Below are positions 3,932 to 14,060 of a DNA stretch of 31,210 nucleotides, one piece after another. The notes below the pieces were generated by a model. The model saw only the letters and a list, made by a program, of their open reading frames with translations, was not told where the DNA came from and did no database searches. Origin of the DNA: a virus; IMG/VR virus record IMGVR_UViG_3300025413_000082, positions 1 through 31,210 of that record, one strand, 5' to 3'. The number at the start of each line of letters is the position of its first letter. Within the stretch, counting starts at the first letter, position 1. The translations under genes and the position numbers were made by a program.

Positions 3932-3951
3932 TCTTGCCCTTACTAATACGC
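3932..3951 (-). promoter_or_regulatory. Repeated promoter-like motif, copy 1 (leftward)
   Basis: On the minus strand it reads GCGTATTAGTAAGGGCAAGA. It lies 13 bases upstream of the primase ATG, pointing into that gene. It is the only leftward copy of six; the core GCGTATTAGT is identical in all. Confidence 0.7.
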
Positions 3952-3988
3952 AAATCGGCTGACCTGCGTTTCACATTATGAAATATTG

Positions 3989-4013: not shown

Positions 4014-4081
4014 TTGGATCCACCATACAAATGAGAATGATTCTTATTTGGTCTATACAAATCAATAACTTACGAGCTCGG

Positions 4082-4190
4082 ATCCACAGTATCCATAGTA
4101 TCCACCCTTTATTCAGGTTATTTTTTATTTTAAAAAAATAAAAAATAAATATCTGGAGTAAAAGTGAAAACTACTGTGGATACTGTGGAT
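4082..4190. repeat. Iteron module A: 9-bp repeats flanking an AT-rich core
   Basis: Three tandem 9-mers, ATCCACAGT (4082-4090), ATCCATAGT (4091-4099) and ATCCACCCT (4100-4108), face two inverted copies, ACTGTGGAT (4173-4181 and 4182-4190). The roughly 64 bp between them are almost pure A/T. The units resemble the DnaA box TTATCCACA. Positions 4167-4194 recur exactly, inverted, at 11158-11185. The layout suits a replication origin (iterons plus unwinding element) or a cooperative operator. Confidence 0.75.
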
Positions 4191-4333
4191 CGTACTCAAA
4201 ATATCTATTGGAATCAAGCACTTACCGTGCCACCCTTTGGCACCTGTATCCTGCCACTATCCTGCCACTTTTTAAAATCGGGCCATAGAGGCGTTTAAAA
4301 TGACTGGGTAAGGGGGTAGCCTCACATAGCCCT

Positions 4334-11093: not shown

Positions 11094-11157
11094 ATTTGCC
11101 AGGGTACAATTTTGTATGGTGGCACGATAACCCGTTGATTTTAAAGAACATTATACT

Positions 11158-11271
11158 TACGATCCACAGTATCCACAGTAGTTTTACTTTTTTTTATTTT
11201 TTTTTAAAAAAGATAAAAAGATATATAGGGTAATAGTCGTTTAGACCCTGGATACTATGGATACTGTGGAT
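11158..11271. repeat. Iteron module B: inverted copy of module A
   Basis: Two 9-mers ATCCACAGT (11162-11170, 11171-11179), an A/T core rich in T and A runs, then ACCCTGGAT (11245-11253), ACTATGGAT (11254-11262) and ACTGTGGAT (11263-11271). Its reverse complement reproduces module A unit for unit, including the variant middle unit ATCCATAGT. Positions 11158-11185 match 4167-4194 exactly in inverted orientation. Confidence 0.75.
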
Positions 11272-11280
11272 AGTGATTAC

Positions 11281-11329: not shown

Positions 11330-11344
11330 AAAATGCAGCATTGT

Positions 11345-11364
11345 GCGTATTAGTAGGAGTATGA
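11345..11364 (+). promoter_or_regulatory. Repeated promoter-like motif, copy 2
   Basis: Reads GCGTATTAGTAGGAGTATGA. The ATG of the next gene begins 16 bases after the motif's first base, so a transcript from it would have almost no leader. Confidence 0.7.
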
Positions 11365-11669
11365 ACAAGTACGTTTACCAAATCCAAGGCGCACTGGAAG
11401 ACAGCAACCAAAACCTACTAGGGTTACGAGTGCTGGTGTGTGACCTGCACAATTTTGATTCAGTAGACGTACCAATTGAGGTTTTAGATAAAGAGACAGC
11501 TAAGTACTTAGCTTTTCGTCTAAAACTAACAGACGGCGCCTTGGTTATCCAAAAACTACCCAATGGCGTCATTAACAAAATTAGACTGCTATTAGGCAAA
11601 TACCTAGATAAGTGGGTATTGGAAAACTTTCATGGCAATATTGGCAACACAAAAGGTGTTAACCCTTGA
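11361..11669 (+). CDS. First late-block gene, unknown
   Basis: A 102-residue protein, MNKYVYQIQGALEDSNQNLL..., with alternating strands and a C-terminal helix (INKIRLLLGKYLDKWVLENF). I chose the ATG at 11361; a GTG at 11343 would add six residues encoded by the repeated motif itself, which is unlikely. AGGAG lies only one base before this ATG, too close for normal use. Lying where a small terminase often sits, it could be one, but nothing in the sequence (no helix-turn-helix) shows that. Confidence 0.65.
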   Translation: MNKYVYQIQGALEDSNQNLLGLRVLVCDLHNFDSVDVPIEVLDKETAKYLAFRLKLTDGALVIQKLPNGVINKIRLLLGKYLDKWVLENFHGNIGNTKGVNP

Positions 11670-12624
11670 CTATTGGAAAATAGCGCAGGACATCAGACCG
11701 GGTGACATTGTATTTGACAGACTGGGCCGCAAGGTCCGGGTAAAGCTCGTCCACCCCCTGGACAAACGCGCATGTTACCGAGTCACGTTCCTAGATGGAA
11801 CCTCAGTGGCTGGGGATAAAGACCTCAAATTGCCAATTGAAACGCCAAAGTACCGCAAAAGGACTTGGGAATACAAAGGCAAATTCCAATTTCGCAGGCC
11901 GCTATCCAATCTCTCCCTTGGAACGCTGTCTGAAATGGAACTGATTAACAAGCACGGTAGGCTTATGTACAGCGTACCGACCGCTGGACCGTTAGAACTG
12001 CCCCATAAAGACCTGCCAGTGCCGCCGTTTGTGTTTGGGTTGTGGTTTTTCTCTAAAAGAAAAGACGGAACCATAAAAATTCCAGAGAAACACTTTGATT
12101 TTATTGTGGAAAAACTAAAAGACTACGGCTATATACCAACATCTTGGCGTGATCCCATCAAAAAACGCCGGGTGTACAGCACAAAGCCAACTGTCATGTC
12201 GCACTTGGCGCCCAATGTGCCATACAAAATCCCAAACAACTACCTGTTAGCCAGCCCAGAGCAACGTCTTGAGCTGCTTAGTGGGATTATGTATGGAAAA
12301 CCAAATCAATATAACCAAAAGTTAGATAGATTTCAGTTTAGCTCCAAACATTTACCAACAGTCAAACAAATTCAGTACCTTGCTGAGACGCTTGGCTGTA
12401 AAACTTTACTTGAGGGACCCAATCCATTATCAGGATACACGGTCTACATCAAAACAAAATTAAAACTCATGGAACATCAGACCCCAGCGCCAATCAAAGT
12501 GCGACAAAACTGGAGAATGATTACCAAAATTGAAGAAATTACACCACAGGCGTGCGTTCACATCGAATTAGATGGCGACGATAGCACGATGTTGGTAGAA
12601 GAAGGATTTATTGCATGCCTTTAA
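11632..12624 (+). CDS. Free-standing Hint/intein-like protein, catalytically degenerate
   Basis: A 330-residue protein that looks like an intein without exteins. Residues 8-67 follow an intein N-terminus (VLTLDYWKIAQDIRPGDIVF, then CYRVTFLDG), and 308-330 match the C-terminal blocks (CVHIEL...LVEEGFIACL). Residues expected for splicing are missing: no Cys/Ser at the start of block A (ATQKV), no block-B His (VAGDKDLKL), and ACL-stop in place of His-Asn. The middle has two LAGLIDADG-like positions, FVFGLWFFSKRKDG (133-146) and RLELLSGIMYGKPN (212-225), both lacking the catalytic acidic residue. It ends inside the start of the terminase gene (10-bp overlap). Its role is unknown; a relic or domesticated intein acting as a structural or regulatory partner of terminase is inference. 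Confidence 0.75.
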   Translation: MAILATQKVLTLDYWKIAQDIRPGDIVFDRLGRKVRVKLVHPLDKRACYRVTFLDGTSVAGDKDLKLPIETPKYRKRTWEYKGKFQFRRPLSNLSLGTLSEMELINKHGRLMYSVPTAGPLELPHKDLPVPPFVFGLWFFSKRKDGTIKIPEKHFDFIVEKLKDYGYIPTSWRDPIKKRRVYSTKPTVMSHLAPNVPYKIPNNYLLASPEQRLELLSGIMYGKPNQYNQKLDRFQFSSKHLPTVKQIQYLAETLGCKTLLEGPNPLSGYTVYIKTKLKLMEHQTPAPIKVRQNWRMITKIEEITPQACVHIELDGDDSTMLVEEGFIACL

Positions 12625-14060
12625 CACCCGAAGATAAAAAAGAACTGATCAAGTTCGCAGCCGATCGACCACACTGGCCCAAACCAGAGCTTGACGCCGC
12701 AATATGGCGCATCACTTGGGCTAAACAAGCGTTAGCACACCAACAAGAACCCGAAGATGGAGAGTATGACACGTTCCTTATGCTTGCAGGCCGCGGCTCT
12801 GGCAAGACACACACTGCTAGCCATTGGATTGGCATTCGTGCTTGGCGCTTCCCCGGCACTCGCTGGCTTGTCACCGCCCCAACCTCTAATGATATTCGTG
12901 CAACTTGCTTCGAAGGAGACTCCGGTCTTCTCAATATCATACCCAAGAGCCTTATACGAGATTACAACAAGTCCCTCTTTGAAATTACCCTCATCAACGG
13001 ATCAATCATTCAGGGGATTCCAGCTTCAGAACCAGAACGTTACCGCGGTAAACAATACCACGGAGCTTGGTTCGACGAGCTATGTGCATTCGACTATCTT
13101 GACGACGCATACGACGGCGTACAGTTCACCTTACGACTTAAAGATCCAAGAATACCCCGTGTCCAGCAGATCATCACCACCACCCCTAAGCCAAGGGAGC
13201 TCATTGTCGACCTCGCCGAAGGTAAAGTCGGTGGCGACGTCTACATGGTCAACGCGTCCTCGTTTGACAACCGGGAAAACCTGTCAGAAACGTTTTTCAA
13301 ACAGTTAGAGACATACGACGGCACCGACATTGGTCGTCAGGAGATCTACGGTGAGATTCTGGACCCAGAGTCCGCCGGTATTATTAAACGTAAGCAGTTC
13401 AAGATGTGGCCTGCTGATAAGCCCACACCAGAGCTGGAGTATGTCCTAGCTTCCTACGACCCCGCTACATCGGAAAAGACACACAACGACCCCACTGCTT
13501 GCACAGTATGGGGAATCTTTGAACAACAAGACGGTGGCACATGCGCAATCCTTCTTGATTCCTGGGACAACCACCTTTCCTACCCAGAACTACGCCGCAA
13601 AGTAGTAAATGATTTTAAAGAGGTTGTATACGGCGCAGATAATGAGTTTGCTAAGGGCAAAAAGGCAGACCTCATCCTCATGGAAGACAAATCTGCTGGT
13701 ATCTCACTAATCCAAGAGCTCAGAGGCGCAGGAGTGCCAGTCCAAGGTTACAACCCCGGCCGCGCGGACAAAGTGCAGCGCCTAAACATCGTAGCACCCC
13801 TGGTAGCTAAGGGAAAAGTGTTCATTCCAGAAGACCCCAAAAAGCCCGGCGAGTTTGCTGACTGGGCAAAGCGTTTTCTGCGCCAAGTCTGTTCGTTCCC
13901 TGAAATGGGTGGCCATGATGACTATGTGGATTCCCTATCACAAGCCCTTCGTATCCTACGAGACGATGGTTGGCTGCAGTTAGACTACCTCCCAGCTAGG
14001 GATTATGACTACGCTGACGATGATGTACGCAAGCGTTTTGCCAATCCCTACGCCCAATAA
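12615..14060 (+). CDS. Terminase large subunit
   Basis: A 481-residue DNA-packaging motor that docks on the portal, hydrolyses ATP to pump DNA into the prohead and cuts concatemers. ATPase motifs: Walker A AGRGSGKT (58-65), Walker B AWFDE (151-155) and the coupling motif TTTPKP (188-193). The RNase-H-like nuclease shows its acidic residues in SYDPA (D282), LILMEDKSAG (E357/D358) and GGHDDYVDS (D435/D436). Length and order are complete and the coding frame is uninterrupted, so the intein-like protein upstream has not been excised from this gene. The gene overlaps that protein by 10 bp and is followed by an 80-bp gap with a promoter-like motif before the portal gene. Confidence 0.95.
   Translation: MPLTPEDKKELIKFAADRPHWPKPELDAAIWRITWAKQALAHQQEPEDGEYDTFLMLAGRGSGKTHTASHWIGIRAWRFPGTRWLVTAPTSNDIRATCFEGDSGLLNIIPKSLIRDYNKSLFEITLINGSIIQGIPASEPERYRGKQYHGAWFDELCAFDYLDDAYDGVQFTLRLKDPRIPRVQQIITTTPKPRELIVDLAEGKVGGDVYMVNASSFDNRENLSETFFKQLETYDGTDIGRQEIYGEILDPESAGIIKRKQFKMWPADKPTPELEYVLASYDPATSEKTHNDPTACTVWGIFEQQDGGTCAILLDSWDNHLSYPELRRKVVNDFKEVVYGADNEFAKGKKADLILMEDKSAGISLIQELRGAGVPVQGYNPGRADKVQRLNIVAPLVAKGKVFIPEDPKKPGEFADWAKRFLRQVCSFPEMGGHDDYVDSLSQALRILRDDGWLQLDYLPARDYDYADDDVRKRFANPYAQ

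Follow-up and report, generated by a model that had tools for sequence, protein, structure and literature searches.

The gene at positions 11632-12624 (+ strand) of the window, that is, of the whole stretch of 31,210 nucleotides analysed, encodes a 330-aa protein that homology, a structural model and a residue survey identify as an inactive intein of the class 3 type, standing free and carrying a LAGLIDADG domain. Its identity as an intein and its domestication are well supported. Equally well supported is the history that we propose for it, in which a class-3-type phage intein would have been captured in one lineage as an exact intein-length gene directly before terL, and would then have lost both enzymatic activities while the fold was retained under selection.

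Homology and predicted fold of the intein protein

The reading frame is intact and, as the original prediction had it, overlaps the start of TerL; it begins with ATG, and the overlap, with the TerL start at 12615, comprises its final 10 nt. In tblastn searches the protein matched a DnaB intein over residues 8-327 with E values down to 2e-16, and many TerL and RecB inteins matched over the same residues. PHROG terminase-intein profiles matched at 7e-14, and a profile of the family compared with active inteins gave E values from 4e-37 (Rousseau DnaB intein) to 6e-14. These sequence comparisons confirm that the homology to inteins is far above chance. No match to the protein was found among the Pfam and NCBIfam families.

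The ends of the gene are the ends of the intein. In the structural alignment with MchDnaB1, residue 2 corresponds to intein residue 1 and residue 330 aligns with the residue preceding the terminal Asn; the stop codon falls at about the place where that Asn is expected. The start Met sits at the -1 extein position, and ungapped alignment and structural register place the Ala2 codon (11635-11637, + strand) at intein position 1, a position that Ala also occupies in class 3 relatives.

The AlphaFold2 model, built from a 69-sequence alignment, has a pLDDT of 92 and a pTM of 0.88. It aligns with PI-SceI over 315 of the 330 residues (Z 24.4, 3.8 Å) and with the class 3 mini-inteins MsmDnaB1 and MchDnaB1 over 123-128 residues of the splicing domain (Z 17.9-18.6, 1.6-1.8 Å). 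The predicted structure contains the Hint splicing fold and, as the matches to PI-SceI and I-DmoI indicate, two LAGLIDADG helices in a single pseudo-dimer, whose Gly136 and Gly218 are invariant in the family. The inserted, nuclease-derived LAGLIDADG domain spans approximately residues 96-290 (11917-12501, + strand), as placed from the model, the I-DmoI matches and the alignment. A predicted structure without a Hint fold had been named beforehand as the result that would speak against a dead intein; since the fold was found, the outcome favours that observation. The layout of Hint blocks and LAGLIDADG motifs is upheld by two models and by structure comparison, and the free-standing intein itself by the tblastn matches, the PHROG and family profiles and the predicted fold. 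The best match among viral structures, BFVD A0A6J7WN65 (293 aa, from an uncultured phage, 28% identity), is possibly another free-standing relative.

Residues of the former active sites

The residue survey comprised 120 rows (98 and 22 more), some of them near-identical. None carries an acid at either LAGLIDADG catalytic position: residue 141 (12052-12054, + strand), in place of the first catalytic Asp, is Asn, Ser, Ala, Gly, Cys or Thr, and residue 223 (12298-12300, + strand), in place of the second, is Lys in 108 rows, Arg in 11 and Gln in 1. At residues 65-67 (11824-11832, + strand) the block-B His has become Leu and the Trp of the WCT motif Leu or Phe. Across the family the block-B His is replaced by Leu, Met or Ala and kept in no row, and the WCT motif is altered in all 120 (Trp to Phe or Leu, Cys to His or Tyr, Thr to Cys). 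The terminal His-Asn is likewise missing from every row, and the reading frame stands free, without flanking exteins. The absence of the block-B His, of the terminal His-Asn and of both acids, first noticed in the one sequence, thus extends to the whole survey. An alignment that would restore the active residues was sought, and no shift recovered Trp, Cys, Thr and Asn together. Position 64, one residue before the block-B His column, is nevertheless His in 33 of 98 rows.

The missing first Cys or Ser calls for a different reading. The residue is indeed absent, but this is not itself a sign of inactivation, as class 3 relatives begin with Ala. In class 3 inteins, as defined in PMC7664689 and PMC5050341, Cys1 is naturally absent. 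In the nearest active inteins the first residue is Ala or Gly, the end reads P/V-T-H-N and block F carries a Cys; among them the Rousseau DnaB, LittleE TerL and 949 TerL inteins, all beginning with Ala, look like class 3 inteins. Because the nearest active inteins show this pattern, Cys1 was probably absent by inheritance rather than lost.

By ungapped alignment from the C-terminal side, H310 appears to replace the class 3 block-F nucleophile Cys; an alternative reading puts C308, two residues upstream, in the nucleophile column. C308 is present in 120 of the 120 rows and H310 in 119 (12553-12561, + strand), and C329 (12616-12618, + strand), which replaces the class 3 block-G Thr in the structural alignment, in 120. 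The invariance of these three residues equals any elsewhere in the protein, and C48 is kept in at least 97% of rows. Since the block-F Cys and block-G Thr positions belong to the protease-like Cys-His-Thr triad of class 3 inteins (PMC7664689), this suggests that the former splicing pocket was rebuilt rather than eroded.

Distribution, selection and neighbouring genes

IMG/VR searches gave at least 173 loci, some being one contig fetched again, and at least 97 distinct full-length sequences, among which identity reaches down to 40%. All members are metagenomic, and their carriers are a lineage of uncultured freshwater tailed phages; the family was absent from the isolate phage records searched. 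Three more loci lie in a betaproteobacterial MAG, possibly as misbinned phage contigs, and no host is assignable. Among the matches listed, the intein gene is upstream of TerL in 173 of 173 loci and is present in all 80 loci fetched by TerL alone. Between its stop and the nearest TerL start codon there is an overlap of 10 nt in 73 of 97 sequences and of 7 nt in 22, so the overlap first seen in the window recurs in relatives.

The intein gene is under purifying selection: the median Nei-Gojobori dN/dS was 0.078 over 87 pairs, against 0.039 for TerL. This calculation had been proposed as a check across relatives, and with the frame intact in all 97 full-length sequences it agrees with the claim that selection keeps the 990-bp gene. 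The intein protein has diverged more quickly than TerL (mean protein distance 0.46 versus 0.13), and its distances follow those of TerL (Mantel r 0.73). A 100/100 branch separates the 28 sampled members from the 11 active inteins used for comparison, in a tree whose root is not established; this shows one group and is consistent with a single origin. The sporadic distribution of homing-type mobility is not seen, as the gene keeps a constant site, occurs in 80 of the 80 TerL-selected loci listed and follows TerL. Features of a domestication of the HO kind are found, namely a stand-alone gene, purifying selection and vertical inheritance. Fold, residue survey, dN/dS, single clade and fixed location together bear out a dead, free-standing and domesticated intein. 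Intermediates (a free-standing yet active form, or the same intein inside a sister-phage terL) were searched for and not found.

The terminase large subunit gene (12615-14060, + strand; family match and residue survey) has an intact P-loop, AGRGSGKT, and is intein-free; the same is true of the P-loop in 173 of 173 family TerLs among the matches listed. A longer TerL match in locus L227 was considered as an intein and rejected, being a second, partial TerL. Such an ATPase-only TerL-like gene lies upstream of the full terL at 774-1319 in L227 and at 2445-3113 in L175; the carriers of the extra gene are one sister contig and Caulobacter phage RW. Upstream of the intein gene, a conserved 102-aa ORF (11361-11669, + strand) overlaps it by 38 nt in most relatives; family searches with this ORF gave no match, and it was not found in sister-phage loci. 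ORFs at least about 125 aa long are inserted between the intein gene and terL in L067, L074, L097 and L169, and upstream of the intein gene in L005-L008. By eye they look like small HNH nucleases, and Pfam searches with them gave no match. Elsewhere in the window, 17529-17969 matches weakly the phage co-chaperonin GroES (phrog_3188, 3e-8), for which MW202545 and Caulobacter phage RW carry an annotated gene as well. Searches for tRNA genes and Rfam families gave no match.

Possible roles of the intein protein

Our best reading, which we find quite possible if somewhat short of probable, is that the protein is a domesticated, non-catalytic, basic, DNA-binding accessory of packaging or of a late stage, made together with TerL. 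The LAGLIDADG saddle, with its catalytic acids changed to neutral or basic residues, would bind DNA without cutting it. The 7-10 nt overlap would couple translation to terL and deliver the intein protein together with TerL, and the protein may then keep TerL, or else the packaging substrate, at specific phage DNA, beside a separately encoded TerS-like protein and not in its stead. That its role is connected with TerL is plausible, given the gene overlap and an unvarying synteny; DNA binding, association with TerL and a packaging or late-stage role are what we infer. Every member is a basic protein (pI 9.1-10.0), the net charge is positive over the greater part of the nuclease-derived domain, and Lys or Arg is fixed (119/120) at one former metal-binding position, residue 223. 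Two things count against the accessory: DNA binding does not account for the conserved Cys/His set of the former splicing pocket, and the sole candidate DNA target examined follows the primase better.

This candidate is an AT-rich spacer flanked by inverted arrays of 9-nt repeats upstream of the operon (11154-11180 and 11253-11279). Of 84 loci, 68 have the arrays upstream of the operon with at least 15/18, against 1 of 336 shuffles. A second copy of the element adjoins the primase gene (4081-4107 and 4172-4191). Relatives have the same repeat architecture with lineage-specific sequence, mostly matching between the two sites of a genome. A leader, TGCGTATTAGT, precedes both the primase gene (3940-3962) and the 102-aa ORF (about 11337-11357), near the repeat elements. 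In the first partial Mantel tests (against TerL and the 102-aa ORF, then with TerS) the intein protein was favoured, but when the shared genes were screened without bias for similarity with the repeats, the primase came first (partial r 0.42, 5/1000), with the intein protein at a partial r of 0.18 (164/1000). Because of this screen the repeats are not evidence for the intein protein and were dropped as its target; they are probable replication-initiator sites.

A regulatory role is unlikely, though a serious candidate: the dead LAGLIDADG protein would bind operators and control its own operon or the late genes, in the manner of WhiA, a bacterial transcription factor that shares ancestry with homing endonucleases (PMC3781837). 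The position near the start of a rightward operon and a basic, apparently non-catalytic protein would suit a regulator; the protein has no separate HTH, however, a regulator gene would not usually overlap terL, deep within a coupled pair of genes, and the upstream repeats follow the primase better. The invariant residues C308, H310 and C329, and C48, could instead be a candidate Cys-His or zinc centre serving protein processing, redox sensing or structure. We regard this as distinctly unlikely in spite of the near-complete conservation of the residues, the derivation of two positions from the class 3 triad and the rebuilt look of the pocket, for an invariant Cys may be structural and the original triad cannot form because the block-B His is gone in every row. 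A combination, in which DNA binding by the dead nuclease and the new invariant Cys/His site would jointly act on TerL or the packaged DNA to control or process it, seems to us quite improbable.

The suggestion that the protein stands in for the small terminase is not supported, and we consider it very unlikely. The intein gene is directly upstream of terL, where a TerS gene would be expected. The closest annotated relatives by TerL, MW202545 (about 54% identical) and Caulobacter phage RW (41%), both have TerS upstream of TerL, and among the MW202545-type IMG/VR loci listed this arrangement is found in 77 of 80, the other 3 being too short. As the intein gene is present in none of these 80 sister loci, it occupies the position that TerS has there. 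No TerS was found near terL in the intein-carrying lineage, and the protein showed no homology to TerS families, its matches being only of the intein and TerL-intein type. The replacement is rejected because the lineage encodes elsewhere a separate, conserved protein of 129-135 aa, TerS-like by its PHROG profiles (phrog_309, E 3e-13 to 4e-6). All 10 family contigs that reach 50 kb have it, as do 13 of the 22 contigs in total. Its gene is on the opposite strand and in most cases 16-34 kb upstream, which for some contigs presupposes a circular reading. It is missing from the window because the window's contig ends before that position; an 80-kb contig (G001) that contains it agrees fully with the window in its intein gene and TerL. 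PF03592 gave no match in the family contigs, but since it missed the annotated TerS of two control phages too, this result carries no weight. Protection against homing is highly improbable. A dead derivative of a P-loop intein would bind the terL insertion site and block active inteins, several of the nearest of which interrupt the GK/T P-loops of TerL or helicases, and the listed family TerLs are indeed uniformly intein-free; however, sister phages have neither the intein gene nor a TerL intein. That the gene is a decaying pseudogene or passive relic is scarcely credible. The inactive class 3 intein pseudogene Arth_1007 (PMC3196547) provides a precedent, but the purifying selection, the intact frames down to 40% identity and the invariant positions contradict it.

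The Rousseau DnaB (Brevibacterium), LittleE TerL (Mycobacterium) and 949 TerL (Lactococcus) phage inteins are full-length homologues with equal domain order, about 330-355 aa, Ala at position 1 and the same fold. They interrupt host genes and keep the block-F Cys, block-B His, THN end and nuclease acids, whereas the family is free-standing and all of these are gone. The yeast HO/WHO elements are also free-standing, intein-derived, without exteins and with motif G lost (PMC7282813); HO keeps its nuclease activity and has a zinc finger, while the family has lost the nuclease acids too, has no extra domain and is phage-borne. Arth_1007 of Arthrobacter FB24, likewise an inactive class 3 intein that stems from a phage and is without block-F Cys and block-B His (PMC3196547), is a lone, decaying pseudogene that retains short remnants of exteins, unlike the conserved, selected and extein-less family. 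WhiA shares the LAGLIDADG relationship and acts as a DNA-binding regulator (PMC3781837); it differs in having an HTH domain (PMC11701221) and is not known to have a Hint domain. HNH proteins beside terminases of the HK97 type are reported packaging components (Kala et al. 2014, as cited in PMC9611059) and, as far as that citation goes, resemble the family in linking a homing-nuclease-like protein to phage packaging, with a different nuclease fold and with the family's own link being the proposed one.

The open-access PMC literature searched describes HO/WHO and Arth_1007, and no selected, doubly inactive phage intein family was found in it. Here what began as a genetic parasite seems to have become a functional protein of the phage. 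Phages are regarded as incubators of inteins. The stable reuse of a whole intein after the loss of both activities would extend what is known from HO, where the nuclease was kept, and from a lone pseudogene, and, if true, it means that a phage can make an intein a core, vertically inherited gene beside its packaging motor.
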